Origin: Lepisosteus oculatus
Taxonomy: Eukaryota > Chordata > Actinopteri > Semionotiformes > Lepisosteidae
Reading direction: 5' to 3'
Length of the DNA: 64,000 nt
Assembly (NCBI RefSeq): GCF_040954835.1
Contig: NC_090699.1
Coordinates: forward strand, 14,935,817 to 14,999,816
The position numbers and the translations under genes were made by a program. Shown here one piece after another: positions 4,091 through 61,376 of this stretch (position 1 is the stretch's first letter; every line of letters begins with the position of its first letter). Below the pieces are notes generated by a model that was not told where the DNA came from, made no database searches, and saw only the letters and a program-made list of their open reading frames with translations.

Positions 4091-7000
4091 ATGAGCTCAA
4101 CCATCAAGGACCGGATCATCGACAGCCTGGGTAGTCTGGATTCAGACAGGTTGAAGAGATTCAAGGAGAAGCTCATTGACATGGGAAAAGATGGCCAGTT
4201 CCCTAGAGCAGAAGTCACCGAATATGATACTATAGACCTGGCAACACGTCTGATTGCTGTCTATCAGGAACATGGCGCAGTTGAAAACACAATTAAAATT
4301 CTGCGTAGCATTCACGAAAACAAAATCGCTTCAGATCTGGAAAGCAAGATGGAACATGGTTCTAAAGGTGATTTTAAAGTCAGATTTATGTTTTGGTTTT
4401 CTACTTCCCAGAATAGTTTAAATCTAAGTACTATGATATACTGTAGACAGTATGTACACTGTATTGTATGCACCGTGATCTATGCATGAACGAAAAACAA
4501 AAGAAAAGTGTTCATTTATATTTTATAAATACACCTGTGCAATGATGCTGACTGCACTGCAGTAGGTCAGAAAGATCATGAAACCTGCTGGGTGGCAGCT
4601 GTGTGCTGGAGTCTGGTTGTGAGAGTGTGGAGCTCCGTACTGTTACTGCAGTCATCAGTGTTACACCCATACTTGATTTTCATTGACAGGTGACTCTTCC
4701 GACGAGGACGAGGATGATGATGAAGATGAGGATGAGGACGGTGAGTATTTAACATTTTGGTAACCTATGGTGGGATATTCTCAGTATTTCAGAAGAGAAG
4801 CCACATCTTGTCTGAACCTGCCATCCTCCCACAATGTGTTGGATAATAATAATAATAATAATTGCTTACACTTATATAGCGCTTTTCTGGACACTCCACT
4901 CAAAGCGCTTTACAGGTAATGGGGACTCCCCTCCACCACCACCAATGTGCAGCATCCACCTGGATAACGAGGAACGGAGAACTGAGAGAACAAAATTATT
5001 TTCTGATCTGATCCTTGATTCCCAAGACTCTCAGCTTTACATTGCAAACCTGTATCAGTAACACAATACCTATTAAGTCTCTATGCTCTATATCTCTGCT
5101 GCTTAGAGATCGATTTGCTGGACTTCTAGCAAAGTGTTTTTGGTTTTTGGATATTGTCAAACTGTTGCTGTATTCATTAGTACCTACAGTATAAGGCTGA
5201 ATAAGCAGGCATCTGTTTCCTGTAACGGACATGAATTTTTGTGTGCTGGACACAGTTATGGGCTTGCACGTTGGCACAGTTGGAGAAGGTAGTAGTAATA
5301 GTGGTAGTAGAGACAGTGGTAGTGGTAGCAGAGACAATAGTAGTGGTAGTAGAGATGATGGTAGTGGTAGTTGAGACAGTGGTAGTGGTACAGTAGCATT
5401 GAGAATGGTAGTGGTAGTAGAGATAATGAAAGTGGTAGTAGTGACAGAAGTAGTGACAGCAGCAATAACAATTGTGATTGCAGAGGGTAGTGACGGTAGT
5501 AGTGCAGTAGTGGTAGTCATGATAGAAGTAGTGATTTGAGTAGTACTGCATGTCTTGCTCTACAATATTAAGCTGATCATGCTACAGATCATCAGTGCAA
5601 TTACAGTTTTCAGCACTGATATATTTTATCATGTTTTATATTTTCCTTGATATTTTTTCCTTGATATGATTTCCTTTATATTTTTTTTCTGACCTTGTTT
5701 CATTTTTGCATTAACAGATAAGGCAACAGATTGGTAACAAGACAAGGAATAACTTCAATAATGGAATTTAATTGCTGTTCAGATGCTTATATTTACTAGA
5801 CAAAAATTACTAGAGAAGTGTGCATTATGCCGTATGTTACACAGCTCCAAACATTTTATGTAATGGTTGCACATTTACACTAGCATTATAATGTGATGTA
5901 CAGTACATTTCTTGTACTTTTATGTACCATCCTATTCCTCTAAAAAAAAGCAGTGAATAGGTCTGTGTTGCTAAAGTGGGAAATAAACCTGTCTGACTTT
6001 TGTGTTTCACCTGCAGATGAGCTTCCAAGACTACTGTGTAAGTTATTTGCCTGTGTGTCTTTGTGCTTTAAAATTGCTAGTTTTCTCCTGAGTCAATAAG
6101 TTTAAACAGATACATGCTAGATTCTTTTGTACACACTGAAAGCTGTGACTATAACACTATTTTTTCTTGTACTTGCATGCCATCATATCTGCTGTTTCCT
6201 TTGATTCAACACTTAATGGAAACTTTGTATAGAATGTAGGTCACAGTGGATTCCGACACCTGCTAAACAAAAGTGAGATATTTTTTCAAGATTTTCAATA
6301 TAAGTAGGGACTTACAAGCAGAGCAGTCTAGTAATCAAACTGTATGCTCATTAAACAAGAATCTCAGTTTAAATAAATATTAAAACCCGTCCAACACATG
6401 CTTTCCTCTATTTTGCCTGCAGGCCGGCTTGCTGTGGACATGGGTGAGTAGCCAAAGTGTTGCAGAACTTCATTTACAGGATTCCTGAAAGAGCAGACTA
6501 ACTGGACAGAGACACACAATGCAGTCAATGCTGGAAAGGATCAATGCTAACCACTGCTCCACCTTGCCGGCCTTATTACCAGCTCAGAAACTATTAAACT
6601 AAACAGATGTTGGTGTCTGGGGATGGTTTACCTGTGATTATGTGGATAATATTAAAATTGAGACATCTAAAATCTAAAATTATTATGTAAGTAGTATGAT
6701 GACCAGAGTCAACTGTTGGCAACTTAGATCTGTAAGTGATCAGGACAACATCATCTACATACCAGAGGTTCCCCTGCTGAGTGAAATATTAATCAACTAC
6801 AAATACATTTACTGTTATTTAGAAACTATTTTCTAAATAATAATTCAGATAGTTATACTGTTATGTAATAATAACAACAACAACTTAAAATAACACATTC
6901 TGTTAAGTTTTTCAGTGAAGAAAATGAAGAAAAAAAAACAGTGCAGAAAAACACAATAAGAAAAAGATCTTTTTCCAATTATACACAACATGATCATCAA

Positions 7001-9358
7001 GAAAATAGATTCTTCAGTATGAGTTAATCTTCTGTGTTGGTCTTAATTCTTCTTCATAATTTCAAGTAATAACACAGAGATCATTCTGTTTGTTTTCACT
7101 ACTGCCATGACAGCAGTGTTATTGCAATGTAGCAGTGCTGTAGTGAGAGTAGGGTGTAGTGACAATAGTAATGCAGTAGTGACAGCAGTATTCACAGTAG
7201 TAGTGACAGTATTAGTGGCAGTAGTGACAGCAGTGACTGTAGCAATACAGTAAATGCAGTAGAGACAGTATTAGTATATAGTGTTAGTAGTGCCAGCAGT
7301 AGTTATTGTAAAAGTGACAGTAGAGACATTACTAGTGACAGTACTTGTGAGAGCAGTGGTAACAGCAGTAGTAGTGCAGTAGTGGAAGTGACAATAGTAG
7401 TGACAGCCATAGTTACAGTAGTAGTGACAGCAGTAGTGACAGCAGTGGTGTGTGCCTGTGCTGTTGGTATCTCAGGGCTCAGTATCAATTGAAAGATTAA
7501 TATTTACAGGCTGCATGTGATGTGAGCTAATGAAAGTGAGCTCACTGCCATCTCCCTGCCAGCAGAGGGTGAGGAAAAAATTACCTCCCAATGAATTCTC
7601 TGATTACTTTTTTCTTATTTTTACAGAAAGATGCAGACCTGAAGGTAAGGAAAATATGTTTCATATTACTGAGCCAAAAAGGTTCAGTTGGATGTGTTCT
7701 ACTAAGTAAGTTACACCATACCTGTATACTTAATACATATTTCTTTAGATGCTGCATGGATTAGAATCTAACACAATTATTGGATTTCATATTTGAAAAT
7801 GTCTTGTTTTTATTGTTCCCTTAAATTTCAGAGATGTTCTTCTCCGCTGTGACATCAGTGGCTGTCCTAGTGAATAGTTTTCTCAGATTCTGCTTCTTTG
7901 TCCTCTGTAACGAATTGATAAAGTACTGCCATTGACATGCAATCAGCATCAATATGGTTGTTTCTGTTCAAGTCAATTATGGGAGGAGTTTCTGAAATAT
8001 CCCCACCTGGGGGGGCAGGTTTACTGTCCCAGGAGTCTGAATGATCTTCTAGATCCCATCTCCCCAAATAAAAACTCTTCCTGATATTTGCTAGGCAGCT
8101 CTTTTTCATTAATAAATAAATAATCCTTACACGTAAAGAGGCTCTTCTGGACACTGCACTTAAATAGGTAATAGGGACTCCCCTCCACCAGCACCAATGT
8201 GCAGCCCCACCTGGATGATGTGACAGCAGTCATAGAGTGATGAAGCCAGTTCAGAGATGGGGATTATGAGGAGGCCATGATTGGTAAAGGCCAGGGGAAA
8301 TTTGGCTGGGACACTTGGCTAACACCCCTACTCTTTTCGAGAAACACCCTTGGTAATTTTTAATTACCACATAGAGTCAGGTCCTCGGATTTCCGATTCA
8401 TGCAAATCACATGTAGATGTACACATTATACAGTACAGTGTTCCCATTACATGTAGCCATTGATGTCACAGCTGGACATACTCACCTTGACACACAAGAT
8501 CACTCTGCTGCACACCTGATCTCAACACAGACAGCAGTGAAGACACACCTGTTCACACACCTGATCTCAACACAGACAGCAGTGAAGACACAGCTGTTTT
8601 TATCTCCAGGTGGACACATACATCTTTTTACATTTGTTTTTCTGAAACTATAATTTCTTTCTCTTTACAGAATTTGAAAGTGCACGTAGGAATGCAGGTG
8701 AGACTATTTGCTTTCTCAAGCATTCATCAATCTCACTAAAATACACAACATAGATTCAGTACATTGGGACTGCTTAACACTGTTCATCATCAACTCTTCT
8801 CCTTTCTTGTCCATAGTTGACGTGACTCTGGACCCCAGAACAGCTCATCCCTGCCTCATTGTGTCTAGGAATGGAAAACAAGTCAGAGATGGTGACATAC
8901 GACAGGATCTCCCCAACAATCCAGAGAGATTTACTTCCTGTGTAGATGTCCTGGGAAAGGATGGGTTCACCTCAGGGAGACACTACTGGGAGGTGAAGGT
9001 TGGGAAGAAGACTGAGTGGGATTTAGGAGTTGTCAGAGAGTCCATCAAAAGGAAAAAGCAGATCTCACTGAGCACTGAGGATGGGTTCTGGACTTTGGGA
9101 CTGAGAAATAGGACGTACACAGTAAGCACAATCCCTGCTCTCGATCTCCCCCTGACCATGAGGCCCCGGAAGCTGGGGGTGTATGTGGATTATGAGGGGG
9201 GGCAGGTCTCCTTTTACAATGTGGAGGAGGAGTCTCATATTTATACGTTCACTTGCAACTTCAGGGAGAAGATCTACCCATTCTTCAGCCCCTGTACCAA
9301 TGATGGGGGTAAAAACTCAGCCCCTCTGATCATCACTCCTGTCAGTCCCCCTGAGTGA
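4091..9358 (+). CDS. PYD-B30.2 (pyrin domain plus PRY-SPRY) protein, gene 1, damaged PYD donor site
   Basis: This is a seven-exon gene. The PYD exon starts at 4,091 (MSSTIKDRIIDSLGSLDSD; IDLATRLI and HENKIASDLE are typical PYD helix motifs). The hinge exons are 4,690-4,740 (acidic, GDSSDEDED...), 6,017-6,037 (DELPRLL), 6,423-6,443 (RLAVDM), 7,627-7,644 (ERCRPE) and 8,671-8,697 (EFESARRNA). The B30.2 exon is 8,817-9,358, with LDP, WEV, LGV and VDYE motifs. All junctions are phase 1. Four bases of the normal donor after 4,358 are missing compared with genes 2 and 3. A cryptic AAAG|GTGATT donor at 4,367/4,368 would keep frame and phase and give about 318 residues. Read-through instead gives a 132-residue PYD-only protein. 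B30.2 differs from gene 3 at only about four residues. Likely role (inference): cytosolic inflammasome sensor or regulator through ASC. The structure is predicted and no transcript has been seen. Confidence 0.7.
4841..4967. mobile_element. short repeat insertion in intron 2 of gene 1, GGATAA duplicated
   Basis: Gene 3 has the empty site (about 30,290-30,305). Gene 1 carries about 121 bp extra, flanked by GGATAA on both sides (4,841-4,846 and 4,962-4,967). The insert starts with an ATA run, continues with a TATATAGCGC segment, and is a partial copy of the repeat at 8,105-8,395. It arrived after genes 1 and 3 separated. Confidence 0.65.
5283..5530. repeat. GTA/GTGGTA-rich microsatellite in intron 2 of gene 1
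   Basis: Imperfect AGT/GTA trinucleotides with interspersed GAGACA units. On translation it yields artificial Val- or Thr-rich frames. The matching tract in gene 3 is longer. Confidence 0.8.
7125..7455. repeat. AGTAGTGACAGC-type minisatellite in gene 1 intron
   Basis: Repeated AGTAGTGACAG units lie between the RLAVDM and ERCRPE exons. Gene 3 has an equivalent tract at 32,985-33,370. Gene 2 keeps only a short remnant at 24,375-24,500. Confidence 0.8.
8105..8395. mobile_element. old interspersed repeat of the TATATAGCGC family, gene 1
   Basis: A repeat with GGGACTCCCCTCCACCA near one end and CTCTTTTCGAGAAACACCC near the other lies in the intron before the 27-nt exon. Genes 2 and 3 have it at the same place (24,720-24,945 and 34,020-34,310), so it predates the expansion. 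Minus-strand open frames across it are not genes. Confidence 0.6.
8500..8610. repeat. minisatellite of about 43 bp just upstream of the 27-nt exon, gene 1
   Basis: Units of CACCTGATCTCAACACAGAC followed by AGCAGTGAAGACACA occur twice here. Three units or so are found in gene 2 (25,305-25,450) and gene 3 (34,430-34,570). The tract lies within 200 bp of the splice acceptor. Confidence 0.75.
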
Positions 9359-10110
9359 AACACAACATCTATAGGAGGGACAGCATGTATAATAACTGCT
9401 GTGCCTTTTGAAATCACTGACTTGCCACAGATTGGGAGAATTATTATGGGATGGGCAGCTTTAGGATCAAGCATTACAAACATGACCATAGCTTGTGAAA
9501 GTGACAAAAATAACATTTTGATCAGCAATATCCATAAGCAACATGGAATTATTAAATCTATGAATGCTGTCAGCCATTTTCATGAAAATCATTATGCTTT
9601 CAAAGTTGCTAATAAAAAAATGAAGGCTGCAAAAATTGGAATCACTGACTTGCCGTAGTTTGGAATAGTATTATTTTGCAAAACATAACAGACCCATCAG
9701 TTTTGTTACTCGAGCTCCATTTTCACTTGGTGAATTAAAGCACATACCTCTGCCTACAATGTGACCTCTGTACTGTAGAGTAAAAATGTCTGTCATCAGT
9801 TCTTCTACTTTAATTTTACAGATGAAGTCTTCAAAATTGTCTTTAAAGCAAATGCAGAGATTTCTTTGAAAATTATTACATAACAGCACCTATCAAAATA
9901 GGTTTAAAATGCAAAGAAAAATATTTACACGTTGCAGTTGTCCAAGGAACTACTGTGTATTCTAAGCATCCAAAGAAACATCATTTACAAGTCCTGTAAA
10001 TTCACAGTTGATTGTTCCAGCAATCTGTTTTAAAAGAGGTGTTCTGACATTGTAATCAGCTGGGTTGCTCAACAAGTATTTCCTGTGAAGATCACAGGTC
10101 AGCGGCGTGT
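9359..10110. repeat. 3' flank of gene 1, shared among array members
   Basis: This is probably the 3' UTR and downstream sequence. AATAAA occurs near 9,608. The part from about 9,670 to 9,960 matches sequence after gene 3 (35,725-36,010) and decayed copies at 14,225-14,370 and 27,660-27,830. I see no separate gene in it. Confidence 0.5.
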
Positions 10111-11463
10111 GTCAACAGTCACTGATAAATTCACTCACACTGCCCACCTGGGACTCCTGATCTTCTCCAGGTTTCTGAAGTTGCTGTCTTGTGGGATTCT
10201 GTCGACTTCCTCTTGTACAGCCTAGACAAACCCATGCCTGTTCACTGGTCTCTGAGCCCAATCAGCCACAGTTCACCCCATACCATCCCAGCAGTGGTGA
10301 ATGACACAGCTACTTTAATTGTGCTGATTAAAAGTGGGGATCAGTAGGGCTTTTCACTGGTCTCTGAGTCCTGGAGGCCCATCGGGATAGCAGTGTATGA
10401 AGGGTCCTCTCATAGTTCACTTGAACCACAGCAATGCAGTGTGTGCAAGGTAACAGCTGTGCTTTTGAGTTTGCAAGTAAATATTTTAATGTAATCAAGT
10501 CTTAAAGCCTTACCCCTTCCAGTGGAGGAATAACTGCTGATCAAGGTCATAAAAAGACAAGTTTAAGTCTTTAATTATTAAGTTTTTTATCCTTCTCTCC
10601 GGTGAGGAAGTTTGGAGTTAAGAGATCTGATGAAATTAGTTATAAAGGGATGATGTGGAGCTGTTAACTGTAAAAATTCCTTAGCTACAGTACTTTGATG
10701 TTGTTGTCAGAAAGGGTAATTTGTTATTTGAGGGAGAAAATGGTACAAAGCATTAGTTTCCTCGAAAATTATTGTAAACATTTTTTAGTGTTACTCTCGG
10801 TGGTGTTGGAGTCCAAGGAGAGTGTTAAATTTCAGGCAAAATCCTTTAGGAATGATGTTGTAATGACGACATCTGTAAAGTAATAGGCGGGGGTTAGAAA
10901 GCCTAGTTTTGAAAAAGATCGCTGAGAAGAGCTGGTTTAGTGAGAGAAGGGGTCACGTAGTCCAGGGAGGAGGAGAAGGAATGATAAAGGGATTTAGTAA
11001 ACGATTTAGAGGAAGGCACATATGATATATGTGTATATATGTATACTGTACTGTATGAACCGTGATCTATGCATGAAAGAAAAATAAATGAAAAGGGTTC
11101 ATTTATATTTTATAAATACATCTCTGCAATGATACTGATTGCACTGCAGTAGGTCAGAAAGATCATGAAATCTGCTGGGTGGCAGCTGTGTGCTGGAGTC
11201 TGGTTGTGAGAGTGTGGAGCTCTGCTTTTGTAGAAGGTCTCCTTCTCACAATACAGAAAGCTGTAACAATAACATTATTATTACTTGCATTTGCATCATC
11301 ATATCTGCTGTTTCATTTGAATCTACGCTTAGTGGAAATATGTAGAATGTAGGTCACAATGGCTAATCACACCTGCTAAACACACAGAAGTGAGATTAAG
11401 AACTTGTAAGTAGGAACTTAAACATATGGAACACAAGCAGTCTAACATTCAAACGGTATGTAC
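10111..11463 (+). pseudogene. headless PYD-B30.2 paralog: 5' flank and intron pieces without the PYD exon
   Basis: 10,120-10,480 matches the conserved block upstream of the other genes. 11,040-11,230 matches intron 1 (compare 4,450-4,630). 11,240-11,460 matches the intron after the DELPRLL exon (compare 6,120-6,360). The PYD exon, the acidic exon and the DELPRLL exon that should lie between are absent. A broken Ty3-like element then cuts the remnant off. The open frame at 10,695-10,883 has no PYD features. Confidence 0.6.
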
Positions 11464-13623
11464 TGTGGTGCCTCCGGGGGAAAGGAAATTGTGGATTACG
11501 CTCCAGGTATCCGAAGGCGATACCTCTACGTAGGGCCGTCAGCACCAGCATCGCTAAGGAGATGGTAAATCTCTTCACCTGTTTTGGCTTGCCGAAAGAA
11601 ATATTAACTGACCAAGGAACTCAGTTCACTTCACACCTGATGCAAGAGAAAGCTAAACTCCTGAACATAAAATTCCTGAGAGCTTCAGTACAGCATCCAC
11701 AAACAGACGGGCTGGTGGAGAGATTTTAATAAAACCCAGAAGCAGATGCTGAAAAAGGTCTTGCAAGCCGACAGGAAAGACTGGGACTTAATCCTCCCTC
11801 TCCTGATATTTGCCATCCGAGAGGTACCCCAAGCCTCCACAGGGTTCTCCCCCTTCGAGTTATTATATGGTAGACAACCCCGAGAAATCTTGCATGTCGC
11901 CTGAGAAGTTTGGGAGTCACAGGGATTGTCGTCCCACAATGTGCTCGATTATGTCCATTCCCTTCAGGACAGGCTTGCACCACTAATGGGGGATCACCTA
12001 CAGCGAGTGCAAGGCAGACAAAAGGAGTGCTATGATCGTTCAGTGCAGCAAAGGATCTTTCTCCCTGGGAATCGTGTAATGCTGCTACTGCCCTCACCAG
12101 AGTGCAAGCTTTACGGGAGATGGCAGGGACCCTACGAAATCCGCGAACGGACCGAGCCAGTCACATACAGGGTATACCATCCGGACCACCGTAAAAAAGA
12201 TATACCACGTGAACGCCCTGAAACCTTGGAGAGAACCCCATGTGGAGGAGACAGTCCCTGCATTGCTGGCCAGTGACTCTACCTCCTCTACCGTGGATAT
12301 AATTTCTCTCTCTCCAAATCTCTCCCCCCCAGGATGTTGGAGCTGACGTCATCGAGGAAAGCCACAGGCCCTGGTCCAGGCCTGTTGTGCTCACCCCGAA
12401 GCCTGACGGTTCCTGGCGTTTCTGCAATGACGTCTCCCGTTTTGATGCCTACCCAATGCCCCGGATAGATGAGCTCCTGGAGAAGCTGGGCAAGGCCAAA
12501 TTTATTACCACCTTAGACCTTACAAAAGGTAATTGGTAAATCCCCCTGTCGAGCCCAACAAAGCCGAAGACCGCTTTTTCGACTCCTATGGGGCTTTACC
12601 AGTACAATGTGTCGCCCTTCGGTCTCCATGGAGCCCCCGCCATCTTTCAACGCCTGATAGAGGCCACCCGGGACTGGACGATACCAAAATCGAAGACCCA
12701 AATCAAGGCTTTCCTGGGGCTTTTAAATTATTAAGGCCGGTTTATTCCCAGCCTTGCCGAGAGGGCTGCACCCCTGACCGATTTCACGCGCACGGCAGCT
12801 CCCCAGACTGTGCGCTGGACCCAGGAAGCGGCTAAAGCCTTTAGTAACCGCAATGTCGCTTTATGCCAGGATCCAGTCCAGGGTCCCTACCTTTCAACAG
12901 AGGTTCATCCTTCAAACAGATGTCTCCGAAAAGGGCATAGGGGCAGTCCTATCTCAAGACTTTAATGGCGAAGAACATCCTGTCCTATACTTGAGCAGAA
13001 AGCTACTGTCCCGGGAGCATAAATATGCTGTCGTGTAGAAGGAGTGTCTGGCGGTCAAGTGGGCAATCGAAACACTGAGGTATTACCTGTTGGGCAGGGA
13101 ATTCACCCTCATTATAGATCATGCACCGCTCACCTGGATGAAGTCTAACAAAGAGAAAAATGCCCTGGTGACCAGGTGGTTCCTTGCCCTACAACCTTAT
13201 CGTTTCGTGGTACAACACCGGGCGGGGATTGCCCACCGAAACGCGGATGCCCTCTTCCGACAACATCAATTGGACGCTTAGGGGATCCCCTCCAAGCTGA
13301 GGGGGAGGGTATGTGACAGTGGAACACACCTCCCACTGCAATTCCTACTCTGCGGCACGTGGGAATGCGCAGCTTCCACACCTAACGCTAATAGCGCTGC
13401 GATTTAAGATCCCCACGCGCCCGCAGACAGCGTTCATGGTAGAACTGATTGTGTTCCCCCTCACTGGCGATACAAACTAATTTCTCCACTCAGAGAGAGG
13501 TTTCTTTCCTGTAGCAGAGAACTGATACCTCTGCAGACGTCTACACACTGGCACACCGCATGGAAGACAGCACGCGCTCTGCCGGTGCTCAGGCAGCATC
13601 CTTACTCTACTGACACTATCACA
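11464..13623 (+). mobile_element. broken Ty3/gypsy-type element, integrase before reverse transcriptase (Gmr1-like), copy 1
   Basis: This 5'-truncated fossil runs from mid-integrase to a 3' LTR. Parts in order: integrase core and C-terminus (about 11,464-12,285; DQGTQFTS, QHPQTDGLVERF), reverse transcriptase fragment (about 12,330-12,850), RNase H (about 12,850-13,280; TLIIDHAPLTW, RNADAL), a purine-rich tract, then an LTR at 13,312-13,623 (TGTGACAG...TATCACA). Integrase upstream of RT is unlike standard gypsy and matches the Gmr1 group known from fish. No 5' LTR is seen. It carries several breaks. It predates the array duplication because all repeat copies share it. Confidence 0.75.
13312..13623 (+). 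repeat. 3' LTR of the Ty3-like fossil, copy 1
   Basis: 312 bp beginning TGTGACAG directly after a G-rich polypurine tract and ending TATCACA, so it has TG...CA ends with a short terminal inverted repeat. Confidence 0.65.
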
Positions 13624-14640
13624 ATATGATTCCAAAAAGAGTAAACAAACACACACAATATACATATATATACACTCAGTTTATTTCAGCCCTTCCTTCT
13701 TTGTCTGTACGTCTGCTCTAGCTCTGAATGCCTCATCTTATTATGAGATTGTTGCTTCTATCCCACACCCGGGCAAACAGAGGAACAAAATTGCAGAATT
13801 GTTACTCTCGCACTAGCGGCACAGCGCTTGAACTTGCAGGTCAAAGTCAACGTGCATGGTCACGTGATCACAGTGCTCTAAAAGCTTTCAGAAACTGACA
13901 CCTCACCTCTGTGCTATTCTGTGTGTAAAATATTTACCTTTATAGCGCTTTTATTGTCCTGTTAACCTTCATTTGTCTTGTTTCATGCTTGTTTCATGTG
14001 TTTTTTTCTTTATAGTTTTTCTATGTAATTTATCAGTGTACCTCAATAAAATAATGAAGATAAATATTCATAAAAATGTATTTTTCCATCTTAGTCATGA
14101 GGTTTATTGCTAATGACAAGCTAGCTTGTGGTTAATATGAAAAGGCTGTAACAAAGAGGAAAGCAGACTGAAGATACCACAAATGAAACAGAAACACTGA
14201 CACCTCACCTCCATGCTTCTTGTGTGAGCTAAAAATTGGTTCTTCAAAATTGTCTGTACAGCAAATGCAGATACTTCTATCAAAAGTATTACAATACAGC
14301 ACCTTTAAAATGTTTTTAAAATGTAGAGGAAAATATACATTGCAAGTATAGTGACAAGGCCTATTATTGCACCTAGATTAAGTGTTATTAAAGAGTTCTA
14401 GTAAGGTTTGCATGCCCTGACCTGCAGCCTGTTGCTGGTCACAGGAATGTTTCTAAAGAGGAGCCTCTCTGTGATCTCAGCTGCAGGATGATCTAATGGT
14501 CTTTGCATGTGGGAAGTGAGGAAGATGAGTTTTTGTCATCTGGATAAGGATCTTTCCTAGGACAATCCAGATCCAGTTGTCCATACTCCCTAAAATGGAT
14601 GTTCATTGCTAGCTCCTGGATGTCCAGCAGAGAGCCATAG
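13624..14640. repeat. decayed 3' flank of a lost array member
   Basis: 13,960-14,110 matches 27,455-27,580 downstream of gene 2, and 14,225-14,370 matches 9,830-9,960 downstream of gene 1. This is leftover flank of a deleted copy. The rest shows nothing recognisable. From about 13.9 kb the 26,053-bp repeat becomes almost exact. Confidence 0.5.
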
Positions 14641-16102: not shown

Positions 16103-16107
16103 ATGTA

Positions 16108-16470: not shown

Positions 16471-16489
16471 GTAGGGTGGCTAGTGGGGT

Positions 16490-16625: not shown

Positions 16626-17282
16626 TGACCAGCAAAGGGTTTGATACTTTGAGACCCAAGTGTCCATGCTTTTCTAATATACAGTATTTTCTCTTTTAAT
16701 GATTTGTCTGATTTGTCTGATTTTGTGTTCTCTTTTTCTTTCAGAAAAATGCAGACCTGAAGGTGAGGAGAAAGGCCACTGCACCACTTTGGCTGCACCC
16801 ACACAAAAACCCACACAAAAAATCGTTCTGGCAACCTCAAATAACACTGCATGTAGTTGCCAGCGATATTACACTACCACAGTTTGTGCACGGTTTGTAT
16901 AGAGAGAGTTTCAAGTCAGAAGATCTTGTTCCAGTTTATATGGTGAATATATTGGTAGATAATCAGCTGCTAATTCTTTGGCAAGCCATTCAAATTAGCT
17001 ACTAATTAATTGTATTTGAAGACTGAAGGCTATCACGGCAAAGTTATAAAAAAGTTATATTAATGCTACCAATTAAAGAAGGCAAACCCATAGGATTCCA
17101 GTACTGAGTTGGTATATTGCAACTAGACACTTGGAACCCATCATATTGGTATGGCATTCTTGTTCCAGCTGTTGCAGCTGCTGTCTGAAGGTGATCACGG
17201 AGATTTGAGGTCCCGCTCCTTACTGGTGGATGTCTTGAGCTTGCACTTTCATTGATATTATGACATTATGATTGGCATCATC

Positions 17283-17565
17283 ATGGTGGCACAGTGGCGA
17301 GCACTGGGGCCTTGAGTTCAATTCCTGGAGTGCTGTCTGTGTGGAGTTTGCATGTTCTACCTGTGTTCGTGTGATTTTCCTCCAGGTGCTCTGAATTCCT
17401 CCCACATTTCAAAGACATGCTGTTATGTGGATTGACTACTAGGAAAAATTGGCCATGGCATCCAGTCCAGGGTGTGCCTCACTGTGTGCCCGTTGCTTGC
17501 TGGGATAGCTTCTAGCCTCCCCGTGACCCTGGATCGGATAAAACAGAAAACGGTGGGATGGATTG
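17283..17565 (+). mobile_element. fish SINE with L2-like tail, sense
   Basis: Contains GGTGGCACAGTGGCGAGCAC (A-box region), GAGTTCAATTCCTGG (B-box region), GTGGAGTTTGCATGTTCT and a GATGGATTGG end. It is a widely spread fish repeat type inside the pseudogene intron. Confidence 0.65.
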
Positions 17566-18029
17566 GCATGTCAGAAGTGCATTCTGTTGCAATCAAATGT
17601 TGATTGTGGTTTTCATTTATACAAGCAGAGTAGAGATTTTCACACAGTCTGAAAGTCAAACAAGACACTCCCTGTTCTTACGCCAAAAGGCAAACAAAGC
17701 AGAAGACCTTAAAGGGACTGCAGATGCCTCAGCAGCTCAAGTACCAAAGCCGAGCTCAGGAGGTCGCAGTGCAACAGCTTCCTTGTGAACATTTGGAAGA
17801 GGCCTGGCACACATACAGTATTTTCCACTAACTGTATAACAATCTACAGGATGTAAAAGTGAAATGGGTGTCCAGTTCAGTGCTAAATGTGCTTCTTTCC
17901 CTGAACTGCTTCAGTGTCCTACAGTTAGCCAGCTCAATAGAGGGTAATGAGGAACATGTTAATTTAATCACTACCAGTAGTTTTGCACTGAAGGCACATA
18001 CTGTACGGCCCTCCTGTTTCTTTTCCTTT

Positions 18030-18090
18030 TTCATCCTTCTCTTTTCAGCATGGATAAAACCTATTACTTGTTCCTTTACTGGACTGACGT
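18030..18090 (+). mobile_element. remnant of the Penelope-like tail
   Basis: TTTTCAGCATGGATAAAACC then TATTACTTGTTCCTTTAC matches the end of the tails near 2 kb. The hammerhead-like core is absent. Confidence 0.5.
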
Positions 18091-48474: not shown

Positions 48475-51400
48475 ATGAGCTCAACCATCAAGGACCGGAT
48501 CATCAACAGCCTGGGTAGTCTGGATTCAGACAGGTTGAAGAGATTCAAGGAGAAGCTCATTGACATGGGAAAAGATGGCCAGTTCCCTAGAGTAGAAGTC
48601 ATCAACTGTGATACGATAGACCTGGCAACACGTCTGATTAATGTCTTTGAGGAAGATGGCGCAGTTAATAAGACAATTACAATTCTGCGTGGCCTTCACG
48701 AAAACAAAATCGCTTCAGATCTGGAAGGGAAGATGGAACATGGTAAGTTCTAAAGGTTATTTTAAAATCAGATTCATGTTTTGGTTTTCTACTTCACAGT
48801 ATAGTTAAAATCTACAGTATGTAACATGATATATTGTATATGTCCATTGTATTGTATGCACCGTGATCTATGCATGAAAGAAAAACAAATGAAAGGTGTT
48901 CATTTATATTTTATAAATACACCTCTGCAATGACAGCAATAGTGACTGCAGGGTTAGTGACGGTAGTAGTGTAGTAGTGGTAGCCATGACAGAAGTAGTA
49001 ATTTGAGTAATACTGCAGGTCTTGATCTATAATAAATCTTGCAAGGACACTGTTTGTACAGCAGGCCTGCTGTATGCACTAGTGAAGTCAGGTAGATCAT
49101 GCAACACATCATCAGAACAATTACAGTTTTTAGCACTGATATATTTTATTTATGTTTATTTTTTTCCATTGACATTATAATGTAATGTATATTTCTTTCC
49201 CTGAATAGTTTTGAAATAAGCATAAACTATAATATTTTATATGTACCATACCATTCCTCTGAAGAGAAAGCAGGGAATATCGCTGCTGTATTGCTAAAGT
49301 AGGAGATTTTGACTTTTGACTTTTGTGTTTCCCCAGCAGATGATCTTCCAAGACTGCTGTGGAAGTAGTTTGTGTGTCTTTGTGCTTTTAAATTGCTATT
49401 TTTCTCCTAACAAGTCAGTAGGTTTAAACAGATACATGCTAGATTCTTTTGTACACATATTGTACGTGAAGGTCAGCTTATACAATACTGAAAGGTGTGA
49501 CAATAACATTATTTTTTCTTGTACTTGCATGACATCATATCTGCTGTTTCCTTTGAATCTACACTTAATTGAAACTTTGTATAGAATGTCACAATGAATA
49601 ACGCCACCAGTTAAACACAGAAACGTGAGTTGTTTTTCAAGATTTTGAATATAAGTAGGGACTTACACATGTGAACTCAAGCAGTCTAGCATTCAAACTG
49701 TATGTACATTAAACAAGAATCTCAGTTTAAATGAATATTAAAACCCGTCCAACACATGCTTTCCTTTATTTTGCCTGCAGGCCGGCTTGCTGTGGACCTG
49801 GGTGAGTAGCCAAAGTGTTGCAGAACTTCATTTTCATGATTCCTGAAAGAGCAGACTAACTGGACAGAGACACAATGCAGTCAATGCTGGAAAGGATCAA
49901 TGCTAACCACTGCTCCACCTTGTCAGCCTTATTTATTACCAGCTCAGAAACTACTAAAATACAGAGGTTTTATTTTTCAGATGGTTTACCTGTGATTATG
50001 TGGTTAAAATTAAAATGATCTAAAATCACTGTGTAATTAGTATGATGACCAGAGTCAACAGTTGCCAACTAAGATCTATAAGTGATCAGGACAACATCAT
50101 CTCTATACCAGAGATTCCCCTGCTGAGTGAAATATTAATCAACTACAAATACATTTCCTATGAATCTGAAAATATGTTCTGAATAATAATTCCGATAGTT
50201 ATTCTGCTATATAATAACTACTTAAAATATCAAATTTTGTTAAGTTTTTTATTGAAGAAAATGAAGAAAAAACAACACACAGAAACACAGTAAGAATAAG
50301 ATTTATCCTCAATTATACAGCACAGGATAATCAAGAAAATAAAAATCTTCAGTACTAGTTAATTTCTGTGTTGGTCTTCTTCATAATCTAAAGTAATAAT
50401 ACATATATCACACTGTTTTCACTACTGCCATGACAGTAGTGACAGTAGCAGAAACAGCAGCCCTAACAGTAGCAGTGACAAGAGAAGCAACAATAGTAGT
50501 GACAGCAGAAGTGCAGTAGTGTCAGTACTGACAACAGTGGTGTGTGCCTGTGCTGTTGGAATCTCAGGGCTCAGAATCACTAGAAGATCAGTATTTACAG
50601 GTTGAATGTGATGTGAGCTAATGAAAGGGAGCTCACTGCCATCTCCCTGCCAGCACAGGGTGAGGAAAAAAGCATATCCCCATATCAGTCGCTGTCCTAG
50701 TGAATAGATTTCTCAGATTCTGCTTCTTTGTCTGCTGTAACGATTTGAGAATGTACTCTCACTGACGAGCAAACAGCCCCACCTGGATGATGCACCAGGC
50801 TGCTCATACACAGCAGCTCTCAGTGGGGAGGAGAGCAGAAGGATGAAGCCAGTTCAGAGACGGGGATAATTAGGAGGCCATGACTGGTAAAGGCTAGGGG
50901 GAAATTTGGCCAGGACGCCAGGGTAACACCCCTACTCTTTTCGAGAAACACCCTGGGATTTTTAATGACCACACAGAGTCAGGATCTTCACTGACTCTCA
51001 CTGATGCTTTTATACAGTATAGTGTCACCACAAGTCTTGATTTGTCTGTCTGTAGCATGTTTTTTCCTGGGAGTCAGGTCTGCTCTTTCTATGGAGGCAC
51101 CTGCTCCTCTGGCTTGTTGTTTTATGAGAAGGGGCTCTCTGAAGCAAGACCTTGAAGTCAGGATCCTGCTTGTAGACTGAGGTCATAGCCCTCCTCACAG
51201 GAGTCTGAGCATTTTCTCTGTCCCAGAGCTTCTGACTGTGAAGGAGTGAGGCAGAGCTGAGGCTCAGGGACAGAGAGCAGTTCAAACTACCCTGTGGGAG
51301 GAGCAGCATCAAACAGCACTTTCTCCAGCTGCACACACCCCTGACACACAAGATCACCCTGCTGCACACCTGATCTCAACACAGACAGCAGTGAGACACA

Positions 51401-52251
51401 CCTGTTCACACACCTGATCTCAACACAGACAGCAGTGAGGACACACCTGTTCACACACCTGAACTCAACACAGACAGCAGTGAAGACACACCTGTTTTTA
51501 TCTCCAGCTGGACACATACTTAAATCTTGTTACATTTCTTTCTCTTTACAGAATTTGAGAGGGCACGCAGGAATGCAGGTGAGACTGTTTGGTTTCTCAA
51601 GCATTCGTCAATCTCATTAAAGATACACAAAGTATAGGTTCAGTGCACTGGGATTACTTAACACTGTTCATCCACAGATCTTCTCATTCGTCTCCTTTCT
51701 TGTCCATAGTGGACGTGACTCTGGACCCCAGAACAGCTCATCCCCATCTCATCCTGTCTGAGGATGGCAAACAAGTCAGACATGGTGACACACGACAGGA
51801 TCTCCCCAACAATCCAGAGAGATTTACTTCCTGTGTCGATGTCCTGGGAAAGGATGGGTTCACCTCAGGTCGACACTACTGGGAGGTGAAGGTGAAAAAT
51901 AAGTCCGCCTGGACTTTAGGAGTCGTCAGAGAGTCCATCAAAAGGAAGGGGCAGATCACACTATGCCCTGAGGCTGGCATCTGGACTGTGTGGCTGAGGG
52001 GTGGGACGTACACAGCAAATTCCACTGTCCCTGTTGACCTCCGGCTGGCCCAGAAGCCCCAAAAGGTGGGGGTGTGTGTGGATTACGAGGAGGGGCAGGT
52101 CTCCTTCTACAACGTGGAGGCCAGGTCCCACATGTTCACCTTTTACGACACCTTCAGGGAGAAGATCTACCCGTTCTTCAGCCCCTGTACCAATGATGGG
52201 GGTGAAAACTCAGCCCCTCTGATCATCACTCCTGTCAGTCCCCCTGAGTGA
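48475..52251 (+). CDS. PYD-B30.2 protein, gene 4 (duplicate of gene 2)
   Basis: Exons are PYD 48,475-48,742, RLAVDL 49,781-49,801, EFERARRNA 51,552-51,578 and B30.2 51,710-52,251, predicting the same 285-residue short-hinge protein as gene 2. The exon with the lost donor (49,340-49,360) and the two deleted micro-exons are the same, so the losses predate this duplication. One intron base differs from gene 2 (50,244). If the duplication is real, this gene doubles the dosage of the gene 2 type; if it is an assembly artefact, this is the same gene counted twice. Confidence 0.7.
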
Positions 52252-55585: not shown

Positions 55586-58500
55586 ATGAGCTCAACCATC
55601 AAGGACCGGATCATCGACAGCCTGGGTAGTCTGGATTCAGACAGGTTGAAGAGATTCAAGGAGAAGCTCATTGACATGGGAAAAGATGGCCAGTTCCCTA
55701 GAGCAGAAGTCAACAAATATGATATGATAGACCTGGCAACACGTCTGATTGCTGTCTATCAGGAACATGGAGCAGTTGAAAACACAATTAAAATTCTGCG
55801 TGGCATTCACGAAAACAAAATCGCTTCAGATCTGGAAAGCAAGATGGAAAATGGTAAGTTCTAAAGGTGATTTTAAAATCAGATTTATGTTTTGGTTTTC
55901 TACTTCCCAGAATAGTTTAAATCTAAGTACTATGATGTACTGTAGACAGTATGTACACTGTATTGTATGCACCGTGATCTATGCATGAACGAAAAACAAA
56001 AGAAAAGTATTCATTTATATTTTATAAATACACCTGTGCAATGATGCTGACTGTACCGCAGTAGGTCAGAAAGATCATGACATCTGCTGGGTGGCAGCTG
56101 TGTGCTGGAGTCTGGTTGTGAGAGTGTGGAGCTCCATACTGTTACTGCAGTCATCACTGTTTCACCCGTACTGACATTTTCCTTGATTTTCATTGACAGG
56201 TGACTCTTCCGACGAGGACGAGGATGATGATGAGGATGAGGACGGTGAGTATTTAACATTTTGGTACCCTATAGTGGGATATTCTCAGTATTTCAGAAGA
56301 TAAGCCACATCTTGTCTGAACCTGCCATCCTCCCACAATGTGTTGGATAACGAGGAATGGAGAACTGAGAGAACAAAATTATTTTCTGATCTGATCCTTG
56401 ATTTCCAAGACTCTCAGCTTTATATTGCAAACCTGTATCCGTAGCACAATACCTATTAAGTCTCTATCCTCTATATCTCTGCTGCTTAGAGATCGATTTG
56501 CTGGACTTCTAGCAAAGTGTTTTTGGTTTTTGGATATTGTCAAACTGTTGCTGTAATCATTAGTACCTACAGTATAAGGCTGAATAAGCAGGCATCTGTT
56601 TCCTGTAACGGACATTAATTTTTGTGTACTAGACACAGTTATGGGCTGCACGTTGGCACAGTTGGAGAAGGTAGTAGTAATAGTGGTAGTAGAGACAGTG
56701 GTAGTGGTAGCAGAGACAATAGTAGTGGTAGTAGAGATGATGGTAGTGGTAGTTGAGACAGTGGTAGTGGTAGCATTGACTATGGTAGTGGTAGTTGAGG
56801 CAGTTGTAGTGGTTGCAGTGACAATGGTAGTGGTAGTAGAGATAATGAAAGTGGTAGTAGTGACAGAAATAGTGACAGCAGCAATAACAACAATTGTGAT
56901 TGCAGAGGGTAGTGACGGTAGTAGTGCAGTAGTGGTAGTCATGATAGAAGTAGTGATTTGAGTAGTACTACATGTCTTGCTCTACAATTTTAAGCTGATC
57001 ATGCTACAGATCGTCAGTGCAATTACAGTTTTCAGCACTGATATATTTTATCATGTTTTATATTTTCCTTTATCTTTTTTCTGACCTTGTTTCATTTTTG
57101 CATTAACAGATAAGGCTTTGAAAGAGAGGGGTGGAGTTTTAAACATTTTGGTAACAAGATGAGGAATAACTTCAATAATGTAATTTAATTGCTGTTCAGA
57201 TGATTATATTTACTAGACAAAAATTACTAGAGAAGTGTGCATTATGCCGTATGTTACACAGCTCCAAACATTTTATATAACGGTTGCACATTTACACTAG
57301 CATTATAATGTGATGTACAGTACATTTCTTGTACTTTTATGTACCACCCTATTCCTCTAAAAAAAAGCAGTGAATAGGTCTGTGTTGCTAAAGTAGGAGA
57401 TAAACCTGTCTGACTTTTGTTTCACCTGCAGATGAGCTTCCGAGACTACTGTGTAAGTTACTTGCCTGTAAGTCTTTGCGCTTTAAAATTGCTAGTTTTC
57501 TCCTGAGTCAATAAGTTTAAACAGATACATGCTAGATTCTTTTGTACACACTGAAAGCTGTGACTATAACACTATTTTTTCTTGTACTTGCATGCCATCA
57601 TATCTGCTGTTTCCTTTGAATCTACACTTAATGGAAGCTTTGTATAGAATGTACGTCACAGTGGATTCTGACACCTGCTAAACAAAAGTGAGATGTTATC
57701 AAGATATTCAATATAAGTAGGGACTTACAAGCAGAGCAGTCTAGTAATCAAACTGTATGCTCATTAAACAAGAATCTCAGTTTAAATATTAAAACCCATC
57801 CAACACATGCTTTCCTCTATTTTGCCTGCAGGCCGGCTTGCTGTGGACCTGGGTGAGTAGCCAAAGTGTTGCAGAACTTCATTTACAAGATTCCTGAAAG
57901 AGCAGACTAACTGGACAGAGACACACAATGCTGGAAAGGATCAATGCTAACCACTGCTCCACCTGTAACGAACAGTTCTTTCCGGACCCTATGCGGACGA
58001 CACAATCCGACGAAGTGGGGAAAACACTGGGAAAACGTTATGCAGGGATACGGGGCTGAAAACAGGGGGGCGTGTCCAAAGTGCGCTGGTGCACGGGGAA
58101 GGTGTGGCCGAGGCAAACAATCCAAAAGAGTAGTCCTTAGAGAGAATCCAAAACACAAGGGTAAGTCCAAAACCAGGAGATCCATCAAAACGCGGAATTA
58201 AAACACGAAGGCCGGGTCGGAACCGGCGGACAGGGAACGGGAACGGGAACGGGAACCGAGATTAAAACCTTAACGGGACCAGGCGCTTCCAGGTCCCGGA
58301 CTCGCACGATACGGAAATCAGATGCAGAGCCCGGATGAGCGTCAGCGCCTGGCTTTTAAGGTGGGCTGGGAATAGGAAACAGGTGCACAGAATAAAGTCT
58401 CAAGTGAAAGGGCTGGAGCACCCTTAAGGAGGGGGAACTAATCGTGACACCACCTTGCCGGCCTTATTACCAGCTCAGAAACTATTAAACTAAACAGATG

Positions 58501-61376
58501 TTGGTGTCTGGGGATGGTTTACCTGTGATTATGTGGATAATATTAAAATTGAGACATCTAAAATCTAAAATTAATATGGAAGTAGTGATGACCAGAGTCA
58601 ACTGTTGGCAACTTAGATCTGTAAGTGATCAGGACAACATCATCTACATACCAGAGGTTCCCCTGCTGAGTGAAATATTAATCAACTACAAATACATTTA
58701 CTGTTATTTAGAAACTATTTTCTAAATAATAATTCAGATAGTTATACTGTTATGTAATAATAACAACAACAACAACTTAAAATAACACATTATGTTAAGT
58801 TTTCCAGTGAAGAAAATGAAGAAAAAAAAACAGTGCAGAAAAACACAATAAGAAAAAGATCTTTTTCCAATTATACACAACATGATCATCAAGAAAATAG
58901 ATTCTTCAGTATGAGTTAATCTTCTGTGTCGGTCTTAATTCTTCTTCATAATTTCAAGTAATAACACAGAGATCATTCTGTTTGTTTTCACTACTGCCAT
59001 GACAGCAGTGTTATTGCAATGTAGCAGTGCTGTAGTGACAGTAGGGTGTAGTGACAATAGTAATGCAGTAGTGACAGCAGTATTCACAGTAGTAGTGACA
59101 GTATTAGTGGCAGTAGTGACAGCAGTGACTGTAGCAATACAGTAAATGCAGTAGAGACAGAATTAGTATATAGTGTTAGTAGTGCCAGCAGTAGTTATTG
59201 TAAAAGTGACAGTAGAGACATTACTAGTGACAGTACTTGTGAGAGCAGTGGTGACAGCAGTAGTAGTGCAGTAGTAGAAGTGACAAAAGTAGTGACAGCC
59301 ATAGTTACAGTAGTAGGAACAACAGTCATAAGAGTATCAGTGACAACAGAAACAGCAGTAGCACTGACAGTAGTACTGATTGTAGTAGTGCAGTGGTGGC
59401 TGTAGTGACAGCAGTGGTGTGTGCCTGTGCTGTTGGTATCTCAGGGCTCAGTATCAATTGAAAGATTAATATTTACAGGCTGCATGTGATGTGAGCTAAT
59501 GAAAGTGAGCTCACTGCCATCTCCCTGCCAGCAGAGGGTGAGGAAAAAATTACCTCCCAATGAATTCTCTGATTACTTTTTTCTTATTTTTACAGAAAGA
59601 TGCAGACCTGAAGGTAAGGGAAATATGTTTCATTTTACTGAGCCAAAAAGGTTCAGTTGGATGTGTTCTACTAAGTAAGTTACACCATACCTGTATACTT
59701 AATACATATTTCTTTAGATGCTGCATGGATTAGAATCTAACACAATTATTGGATTTCATATTTGAAAATGTCTTGTTTTTATTGTTCCCTTAAATTTCAG
59801 AGATGTTCTTCTCCGCTGTGACATCAGTGGCTGTCCAAGTGAATAGTTTTCTCAGATTCTGCTTCTTTGTCCTCTGTAATGAATTGATAAAGTACTGCCA
59901 TTGACATGCAATCAGCATCAATATGGTTGTTTCTGTTCAAGTCAATTATGGGAGGAGTTTCTGAAATATCCCCACCTGGGGGGGCAGGTTTACTGTCCCA
60001 GGAGTCTGAATGATCTTCTAGATCCCATCTCCCCAAATAAAAACTCTTCCTGATATTTGCTAGGCAGCTCTTTTTCATTAATAAATAAATAATCCTTACA
60101 CGTAAAGAGGCTCTTCTGGACACTGCACTTAAATAGGTAATAGGGACTCCCCTCCACCAGCACCAATGTGCAGCCCCACCTGGATGATGTGACAGCAGTC
60201 ATAGAGTGATGAAGCCAGTTCAGAGATGGGGATTATGAGGAGGCCATGATTGGTAAAGGCCAGGGGAAATTTGGCTGGGACACTTGGCTAACACCCCTAC
60301 TCTTTTCGAGAAACACCCTTGGTAATTTTTAATTACCACATAGAGTCAGGTCCTCGGATTTCCGATTAATGCAAATCACATGTACATGTTCAGTACACAT
60401 TATACAGTACAGTGTTCCCATTACATGTAGCCATTGATGTCACAGCTGGACATACTCACCTTGACACACAAGATCACCCTGCTGCACACCTGATCTCAAC
60501 ACAGACAGCAGTGAGACACACCTGTTCACACACCTGATCTCAACACAGACAGCAGTGAAGACACACGTGTTCACATGTGATCTCAACACAGACAGCAGTG
60601 AAGACACAGCTGTTTTTATCTCCAGCTGGACACATAAATCTTGTTACATTTTTTTTTCTGAAACTATAATTTCTTTCTCTTTACAGAATTTGAGAGTGCA
60701 CGTAGGAATGCAGGTGAGACTATTTGCTTTCTCAAGCATTCATCAATCTCATTAAAATACACAAAGTACAGGTTCAGTGCACTGAGATTACTTTACACTG
60801 TTCATCATCAACTCTTCTCCTTTCTTGTCCATAGTGGACGTGACTCTGGACCCCAGAACAGCTCATCCCCATCTCATTGTGTCTAGGAATGGGAAACAAG
60901 TCAGACATGGTGACATACGACAGGATCTCCCTGACAATCCAGAGAGATTTACTTCCTGTGTCGATGTCCTGGGAAAGGATGGGTTCACCTCAGGGAGACA
61001 CTACTGGGAGGTGAAGGTTGGGAAGAAGACTGAGTGGGATTTAGGAGTTGTCAGAGAGTCCATCAAAAGGAAAAAGCAGATCTCACTGAGCACTGAGGAT
61101 GGGTTCTGGACTTTGGGACTGAGAAATAGGACGTACACAGTAAGCACAATCCCTGCTCTCGATCTCCCCCTGACCATGAGGCCCCGGAAGCTGGGGGTGT
61201 ATGTGGATTATGAGGGGGGGCAGGTCTCCTTTTACAATGTGGAGGAGGAGTCTCATATTTATACGTTCACTTGCAACTTCAGGGAGAAGCTCTACCCATT
61301 CTTCAGCCCCTGTACCAATGATGGGGGTAAAAACTCAGCCCCTCTGATCATCACTCCTGTCAGTCCCCCTGAGTGA
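55586..61376 (+). CDS. PYD-B30.2 protein, gene 5 (duplicate of gene 3)
   Basis: Exons are PYD 55,586-55,853, acidic 56,200-56,244, DELPRLL 57,432-57,452, RLAVDL 57,832-57,852, ERCRPE 59,596-59,613, EFESARRNA 60,687-60,713 and B30.2 60,835-61,376. All splice sites match gene 3 and the predicted 313-residue protein is the same. It also carries the antisense solo LTR. I noticed one intronic base that differs from gene 3 (58,644), where gene 5 agrees with gene 1. Confidence 0.75.
57964..58449 (-). mobile_element. antisense solo LTR in gene 5 intron
   Basis: Duplicate of 31,911-32,396 with the same CCACC flanks. Confidence 0.85.

Follow-up and report, generated by a model that had tools for sequence, protein, structure and literature searches.

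A tandem array of predicted genes pairing pyrin and B30.2 domains in Lepisosteus oculatus

Introduction

Pyrin domains (PYDs) work by joining like PYDs, and B30.2 domains bind ligands. The two are combined in pyrin (MEFV/TRIM20), which also has a B-box, a coiled coil and a long middle region, and may be combined in the fish NLR-B30.2 proteins (NLR-C, including piscine NLRP3), which carry FISNA-NACHT and LRR domains. Here we analyse 64,000 nucleotides (nt) of the Lepisosteus oculatus genome (assembly GCF_040954835.1, contig NC_090699.1, here C4, positions 14,935,817-14,999,816; this whole stretch is called the window), in which PYD exons alternate with B30.2 (PRY-SPRY) exons in a predicted tandem gene array, and compare it with the rest of the genome (1.2 Gb, 813 contigs).

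Pyrin has been proposed to originate from recombination between a PYD-bearing NLR gene and a neighbouring fintrim gene, and its B30.2 is described as resembling that of the btr family (PMC4852459). A trim20 gene is reported in pufferfish and not in zebrafish (Boudinot et al., PMC3137616). A review of teleost NLRC3-like proteins gives at least eight kinds, none of them a PYD-B30.2 protein without NACHT (PMC9978379). In zebrafish and carp, PYD-bearing caspases are also joined by PYDs (PMC12436146). The open-access literature examined yielded no description of a PYD-B30.2 layout without NACHT; models of this kind may be listed under different names in fish gene catalogues.

The genes described here share with pyrin an N-terminal PYD, as called by Pfam, and a C-terminal B30.2 whose best PDB match is human pyrin. 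They differ in that no B-box, coiled coil or long middle region was found, in their tandem arrangement and in their micro-exon linker. With the fish NLR-B30.2 genes they share the possible combination of PYD and B30.2 and the tandem expansion, but no FISNA-NACHT was found in the array and no LRR in the window, most FISNA matches of the genome lie on another contig (C18), and the B30.2 and PYD of the array are nearest to other genes of the same genome. Butyrophilin tails likewise have very short exons just 5′ of the B30.2 exon (PMC6790196); the window scans matched no immunoglobulin domain, and the 27-nt exon of the array is shared with a TRIM gene. The PYD-only proteins POP1 and ASC2 resemble the array genes in having a single PYD able in principle to cap filaments, whereas the array genes carry a B30.2 as well.

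A row of PYD-B30.2 exon pairs

Five PYD exons (starting at 4091, 22422, 29533, 48475 and 55586) alternate with five B30.2 exons (ending at 9358, 26198, 35323, 52251 and 61376), all on the + strand, between positions 4091 and 61376 of the window. Pfam domain calls were made on the three distinct pairs, genes 1, 2 and 3, and gave PYRIN at E values of 7e-12 to 2e-13 and PRY plus SPRY at 7e-22 to 9e-27. These pairs correspond to three gene types: A (4091-9358), B (22,422-26,198) and A′ (29,533-35,323). The exons, including the micro-exons described below, are as follows.

4091-4367, + strand: gene 1 (type A), PYD exon; Pfam PYRIN 2.4e-13, donor score
4690-4740, + strand: gene 1, acidic 51-nt micro-exon GDSSDEDEDDDEDEDED; splice-aware scan, conserved with gene 3
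6423-6443, + strand: gene 1, 21-nt micro-exon GRLAVDM; splice-aware scan
7627-7644, + strand: gene 1, 18-nt micro-exon ERCRPE; splice-aware scan
8671-8697, + strand: gene 1, 27-nt micro-exon EFESARRNA; splice-aware scan and genome pattern
8817-9358, + strand: gene 1, B30.2 (PRY-SPRY) exon; Pfam SPRY 6.1e-26, PRY 7.1e-22
22422-22689, + strand: gene 2 (type B), PYD exon; Pfam PYRIN 6.8e-12
23728-23748, + strand: gene 2, 21-nt micro-exon GRLAVDL; splice-aware scan
25499-25525, + strand: gene 2, 27-nt micro-exon EFERARRNA; splice-aware scan and genome pattern
25657-26198, + strand: gene 2, B30.2 exon; Pfam SPRY 7.9e-26, PRY 2.1e-24
29533-29800, + strand: gene 3 (type A′), PYD exon; Pfam PYRIN 2.4e-13
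30147-30191, + strand: gene 3, acidic 45-nt micro-exon GDSSDEDEDDDEDED; splice-aware scan, conserved with gene 1
31779-31799, + strand: gene 3, 21-nt micro-exon GRLAVDL; splice-aware scan
33543-33560, + strand: gene 3, 18-nt micro-exon ERCRPE; splice-aware scan
34634-34660, + strand: gene 3, 27-nt micro-exon EFESARRNA; splice-aware scan and genome pattern
34782-35323, + strand: gene 3, B30.2 exon; Pfam SPRY 8.6e-27, PRY 6.4e-23, best PDB match human pyrin B30.2 (5e-54)
48475-52251, + strand: gene 4 (gene 2 shifted by 26,053), exons 48475-48742, 49781-49801, 51552-51578 and 51710-52251; unit comparison, gene model
55586-61376, + strand: gene 5 (gene 3 shifted by 26,053), exons 55586-55853, 56200-56244, 57832-57852, 59596-59613, 60687-60713 and 60835-61376; unit comparison, gene model

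A first-pass annotation made from the letters of the window had described five same-strand genes, each joining a PYD exon to a PRY-SPRY exon. Both sets of five exons are present on the + strand with significant PYRIN, PRY and SPRY matches, but only three of the five genes are distinct, since genes 4 and 5 are copies of genes 2 and 3 at a period of 26,053 bp. That annotation had overlooked this near-identity, and with it the linker micro-exons, the TRIM-type 3′ half and the extension of the row into an array of 11 pairs.

Candidate micro-exons between the PYD and B30.2 exons

Each window copy has 2 to 4 micro-exons with splice signals between its PYD and B30.2 exons, all of them in phase 1. The core of this linker is formed by the 21-nt and 27-nt exons, to which some copies add the acidic exon of 45 or 51 nt and the 18-nt exon. 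A strict splice-aware scan for phase-1 exons returned only the 18-nt ERCRPE and 27-nt EFESARRNA exons in types A and A′ and only the 27-nt EFERARRNA exon in type B, compared with a mean of 0.0 exons in 200 dinucleotide shuffles of each intron; the thresholds were chosen after these exons had been seen, and the splice-site weights are approximate. A looser scan requiring conservation between A and A′ added the acidic exon (GDSSDEDEDDDEDED in gene 3) and the 21-nt exon (GRLAVDL or GRLAVDM), the latter also found in type B. A 36-nt candidate in A′ (genes 3 and 5), seen at loose thresholds, has no counterpart in A and was excluded from the models.

All five window models built in this way are open from end to end, with every junction in phase 1, and predict proteins of 311, 285, 306, 285 and 306 amino acids for genes 1 to 5 respectively. 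An initial two-exon structure was superseded once the conserved micro-exons had been seen. The description of a two-domain gene holds in that PYD and B30.2 are the sole recognisable domains; it had missed the exons that lie between them. Phase-matched micro-exons are evidence for splicing, whereas the strict alternation of PYD and B30.2 exons is by itself none, because block duplication produces it. We infer that the two exons could be joined in one messenger RNA, as frames and phases permit in five of five window copies.

Domains looked for in the window

Six-frame scans of the introns and other distinct window sequence with Pfam hidden Markov models returned no NACHT, FISNA, LRR, B-box, RING or TRIM coiled coil. 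No LRR family matched (short single LRRs might escape detection), nor did any immunoglobulin family. For introns the scans cover the copies within the window only; they skipped the + strand of 35,324-37,947, where the letters are 98% identical to a scanned part, and the second copy of the 26-kb unit. A similar scan of a TRIM gene at C4:13.9085-13.9198 Mb recovered RING, B-box and TRIM coiled coil. The proposed absence of recognisable NACHT, LRR and B-box is supported by these scans, and that of a coiled coil agrees with the lack in the window of any match to TRIM_CC, the Pfam model matched in the control gene, no coiled-coil predictor having been run. The other Pfam matches in the window were a sub-cutoff truncated PRY belonging to a relic, retroelement reverse-transcriptase, RNase H and integrase domains, and a sub-cutoff New_glue match on the − strand.

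Around the array, none of the 33 FISNA and 56 NACHT matches of the genome falls within C4:14.77-15.09 Mb, and no B-box was found there among the best 150 of 266 candidates scored. The failure of two pyrin features (B-box, coiled coil) and two NLR features (NACHT, LRR) to appear sets the family outside both groups. It may work like a stripped pyrin, and we class it with neither pyrin nor the NLRs.

The wider array on C4

Searching the genome of the same species revealed 13 PYD matches in C4:14.78-15.07 Mb, in addition to two relics with stops. Eleven of these PYD exons, from 14,927,536 to 15,073,736, are each accompanied by a downstream B30.2 exon, so that the array spans ~156 kb and comprises copy k1, genes 1-5 and copies k7-k11; the B30.2 exons of k10 and k11 are known by position only. 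The remaining two (k0 and k0b, at 14,779,722 and 14,782,958) are divergent PYDs upstream of the array, accompanied by 18-nt and 27-nt exons of their own and by a broken B30.2. The 11 pairs, together with the repeated 26,053-bp unit, bear out tandem duplication as the mode of expansion.

All 11 array copies have the 21-nt exon (GRLAVDL, GRLAVDM, GQLAVDL or GRLAVEL), and all nine copies whose intron end was read have the 27-nt exon, as does k10 by pattern match. The acidic exon is present in genes 1, 3 and 5 and in k8-k11, and absent from k1, genes 2 and 4, and k7. The 18-nt exon is present in genes 1, 3 and 5 and in k7-k11 (double in k7), and absent from k1 and genes 2 and 4. Copies k8-k11 have an extra 21-nt candidate exon (DESSKEK or EETSKEM). 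The 11 genomic matches to a degenerate pattern combining the 27-nt exon with its splice sites all fall within this array (8 of the 11 copies, k0 and two relics), compared with 0 for the reversed pattern. The pattern misses k7, k8 and k11 and is too narrow for the TRIM version of the exon; it therefore indicates that the exon is sequence-specific, and is no proof that other genes are without such an exon.

A TATA-like box lies 42-43 nt upstream of the ATG in 11 of 11 array copies and is absent from the divergent k0. Interferon-type upstream elements were considered and set aside: a pattern resembling the interferon-stimulated response element occurs in genes 1-5 and k0 and not in k1 or k7-k11.

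Relatives and possible origin of the two halves

The B30.2 exon of gene 3 was used as query, and relatives were taken from the best 150 of 349 candidates scored. Within that set, the nearest outside the array are 10 near full-length exons at C4:13.77-14.06 Mb, with 65-69% identity, and nearly as close are matches at C4:15.20 Mb (68%, one stop) and C13:21.6 Mb (64-66%). One of these relatives belongs to a TRIM gene at C4:13.91 Mb, presumably a btr/TRIM39-like gene, in which RING, B-box and TRIM_CC are followed by a 27-nt exon (EFERLRKHA) and then by a B30.2 69% identical to that of gene 3. A 27-nt exon followed by a B30.2 exon, in phase 1, is thus common to the array and to this gene, which differs in its RING, B-box and coiled coil. 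Matches to both B-box and B30.2 flank the array, at 14.64 Mb (60%) and at 15.19-15.20 Mb (68%, one stop). A butyrophilin tail had been considered as the source on the basis of micro-exon sizes, and was rejected since the TRIM gene has a 27-nt exon at the same place and phase.

For the PYD, the nearest relatives outside the array are three PYDs within 7 kb at C30:9.386-9.393 Mb, with 38-47% identity. A CARD lies ~2.2 kb after one of them, as in ASC, and this ASC-like locus is perhaps the source of the array PYD. The Pfam model, and not the array PYD at E values up to 0.01, matched two further groups of PYDs: those neighbouring NACHT exons on C2 (77.47 and 77.49 Mb) and a set of 14 on C14. Against PDB sequences, the PYD is closest to ASC (2e-9), followed by pyrin (5.5e-6), and the B30.2 matches human pyrin best (5e-54), narrowly ahead of TRIM21 (4e-52) and then BTN3A1; PDB has few fish proteins, so these ranks are no proof of orthology. 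The predicted structure of the PYD (predicted local distance difference test score 89) matches in Foldseek the PYDs of ASC, pyrin and POP1, with template-modelling scores of about 0.8-0.87 and E values of 8e-4 or weaker.

The TRIM-type pairing of 27-nt exon and B30.2, the TRIM-like matches on either side of the array and a PYD nearest to an ASC-like locus together suggest that the family most likely arose from a PYD exon and a TRIM tail. A PYD exon would have been placed ahead of a tail consisting of the 27-nt exon and the B30.2 exon, creating the founding gene, and repeated unequal crossing-over would then have expanded the family.

A minisatellite occurs just 5′ of the 27-nt exon, at window positions 8490-8600, 25290-25440 and 34410-34560. 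It was considered as a mark of the TRIM fusion breakpoint and discarded, because its counterpart in an intron of the TRIM gene has the reverse orientation; it is probably a dispersed repeat.

Rates of change in the PYD and the B30.2

Amino-acid change was compared between the two halves by counting each change once per codon column, with genes 4 and 5 (whose proteins equal those of genes 2 and 3), k0 and k0b (divergent) left out, and for the B30.2 also without k1 (cut), k7 (insertion), k10 and k11. The nine PYDs showed 54 non-synonymous and 12 synonymous changes, a ratio of 1.22 that does not differ from neutrality (p=0.65). In the five B30.2 exons, 79.5 non-synonymous and 55.5 synonymous changes gave a ratio of 0.43 (p=3e-6). 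When both exons were taken from one set of five copies, they differed from each other (Fisher p=0.003). Positive selection on the PYD, which single pairs had hinted at (ratio 3.5), is thus unsupported over the nine copies.

All 11 array PYDs align without gaps over 270 bases (90 codons); when the flanks are included, alignments of the type B PYD exon with those of A and A′ open 10-12 gaps per 0.8 kb. Mean synonymous divergence is 0.09 for the PYD and 0.225 for the B30.2. The low value for the PYD suggests that gene conversion may act on it, in which case the changes counted above are not independent.

In NLR-B30.2 and fintrim genes the B30.2 is reported as the diversifying part (PMC4852459, PMC2657112), and the pattern in this array is the reverse. 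A near-neutral PYD with a constrained B30.2 weakens a simple model in which the PYD is the conserved signaller and the B30.2 the diversifying sensor. The earlier proposal is supported as regards a compact PYD-B30.2 family whose frames and phases allow joined transcripts in all five window copies; the coupling of B30.2 recognition to ASC that it suggests is hypothetical.

Proposed function and alternative readings

We give about an even chance to the reading that these are real genes of one tandem family, in which a PYD fused to a TRIM tail acts as a pyrin-like trigger without the B-box and coiled coil. The predicted product would be a small protein of about 285-311 amino acids, probably cytosolic, in which a short linker, acidic in type A, connects the PYD at the N terminus to the B30.2 at the C terminus, and it would probably act on ASC or PYD-caspases. 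In the mechanism we propose, the B30.2 would bind a pathogen or host ligand, and a multivalent ligand would cluster the PYDs, which could then seed or join ASC or PYD-caspase filaments. The protein would thus be a pyrin-like trigger with no oligomerisation domain of its own; as neither NACHT nor coiled coil was found, the ligand would have to provide the clustering. We suggest more tentatively, and with less than even confidence, that a direct fusion of a PYD to a TRIM B30.2 tail took place separately from the origin of tetrapod pyrin, yielding a B30.2-guided inflammasome regulator or trigger with the PYD, not the B30.2, as its variable part.

Several observations weigh against a fused, pyrin-like trigger. 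The spliced product is predicted from gene models, and in gene 1 a 4-bp deletion has removed the usual donor after the PYD, although an alternative donor ten bases further (AAAG|GTGATT, at 4368) preserves the frame. The B30.2 frame of k1 leaves the domain early, two stop-bearing PYD relics lie inside the array, and linker composition varies among copies apart from the constant 21-nt and 27-nt exons. The scans found no nucleotide-binding or coiled-coil domain that could drive oligomerisation. Near-neutral change in the PYD beside a constrained B30.2 would fit a PYD under relaxed constraint, and its freedom from stops is a weak sign of constraint (P about 0.11). Finally, the TRIM source is drawn from one TRIM gene examined together with genome-wide match lists.

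The same genes might instead have the opposite effect, as a POP-like regulator or decoy, which we regard as less likely than a trigger. Here the single PYD would cap or compete for ASC or PYD-caspase filaments, the B30.2 would set the place and time, and several slightly differing PYDs would tune the inflammasome instead of firing it. The window scans matched no oligomerisation domain, the structural matches of the PYD include POP1 and ASC2, and a near-neutral PYD next to a constrained B30.2 means that filament seeding may not be strongly selected; yet the queried PYD keeps the residues aligned with ASC K21, K26, R41, D48 and D51, so that filament joining is possible. Orthology with pyrin (MEFV/TRIM20), its B-box and coiled-coil exons missed or lying elsewhere, would account for a B30.2 that matches human pyrin narrowly before TRIM21 and BTN3A1 and for the pyrin-like fold of the PYD. 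We consider this improbable: the window holds no B-box or coiled coil while the same kind of scan recovers both in a TRIM gene, the surrounding C4:14.77-15.09 Mb gave no B-box among the best 150 of 266 candidates, and the PYD is nearer in sequence to ASC (2e-9) than to pyrin (5.5e-6).

It is similarly improbable that the PYD-only and B30.2 parts are separate transcripts brought side by side by block duplication. Such duplication does yield strict alternation and so leaves it no proof of splicing, but diverged copies retain micro-exons that agree in phase and have splice sites, and the modelled B30.2 exon needs an upstream exon for its first codon and initiator. Least probable of all, to our mind very much so, is that these are decayed NLR-B30.2 genes that lost their NACHT and LRR exons. 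A PYD-NACHT-LRR-B30.2 order is a known fish layout (PMC9978379, PMC4852459), but 27 of the 33 FISNA matches lie on C18 and 0 in the array, which also holds 0 of the 56 NACHT matches; C18 contributes none of the best 150 of 349 B30.2 relatives; the PYDs beside NACHT exons on C2 (77.47 and 77.49 Mb) are not among the relatives of the array PYD at E up to 0.01, nor are the 14 on C14, which may belong to genes of another kind; and the 27-nt micro-exon is common to a TRIM gene.

On the reading of a PYD fused to a TRIM tail, the two halves of the origin proposed for pyrin (PMC4852459) appear here adjacent and matched in splice phase, near TRIM-type genes and with B-box and coiled coil lacking. Provided that the modelled transcripts exist, the array would be a natural test of the smallest combination of PYD and B30.2 able to act on ASC, and of whether PYD/TRIM fusions recur.

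Duplications of several ages within the array

Comparison of the window with itself revealed the 26,053-bp period, with 3 substitutions over 24,058 bp between 13,890-37,947 and 39,943-64,000. With so few mismatches, genes 4 and 5 are copies of genes 2 and 3, made either by a very recent duplication or by the assembly. By contrast, the stretch just left of the unit (9458-13,889) differs from its counterpart (35,512-39,942) by 63 substitutions and 9 gap bases, ~1.6%. The units and an associated relic are as follows.

13890-39942, no strand: tandem unit of 26,053 bp, copy 1, with genes 2 and 3; comparable with copy 2 only to 37,947
39943-64000, no strand: copy 2 of the unit, to the window end, with genes 4 and 5; 3 substitutions relative to copy 1 over 24,058 bp
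16745-19264 (and +26,053), + strand: decayed paralogue (relic), with 18-nt exon 16745-16762 EKCRPE, 27-nt exon 18218-18244 EFKRMRKHA and truncated PRY 19188-19264 below the Pfam cut-off; from scans

A false duplication by the assembler, which is compatible with a fused gene family and would account for genes 4 and 5, is suggested by the low count of 3 substitutions across 24 kb. We think it the less probable origin of these two copies. The unit border lies inside older homologous sequence, and a jump in divergence from 1.6% to 0.01% there is what unequal crossing-over leaves. Moreover, the window has no Ns, and a second tandem pair, k9 and k10, shifted by 23,684 bp, is 0.6% diverged, indicating that tandem duplication is active in the array. 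The near-identity of k9 and k10 (99.4% over 6.3 kb) beside older copies means that duplications of several ages coexist, and the array displays them at one locus.

Over 2.3 kb, the part of the window relic with the two micro-exons shares 96.5% identity with sequence near the divergent upstream copy k0 (C4:14.78 Mb). The two PYD relics elsewhere in the array (C4:15,040,086 and 15,063,770) have equal stop counts and lie 23,684 bp apart, which is the shift between k9 and k10.

Other observations

At window positions 11500-13200 and 37550-39250 are retroelement pieces in which an integrase region, below the Pfam cut-off, precedes reverse transcriptase and RNase H, an unusual order for a Ty3-type element; we take these pieces to be Gmr1-like. 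A search for transfer RNA genes gave none, and a 246-codon open frame at 1120-1860 has no Pfam match.

Elsewhere in the genome, the 14 PYD matches on C14 lie at 35.0-37.4 Mb and represent another PYD family; C14 has no FISNA match. On C18 (3.4-19.2 Mb), where the 27 FISNA matches represent 26 exons (one match being a second piece of the same exon), 14 of the 26 exons listed have a B-box match 4-29 kb upstream on the same strand, so that a B-box exon may open many of the NLR genes there. FISNA, NACHT and B-box matches with equal scores recur ~930 kb apart on this contig, in 7,588,803-7,860,709 and 8,518,695-8,790,162, consistent with a large duplication or an assembly duplicate.

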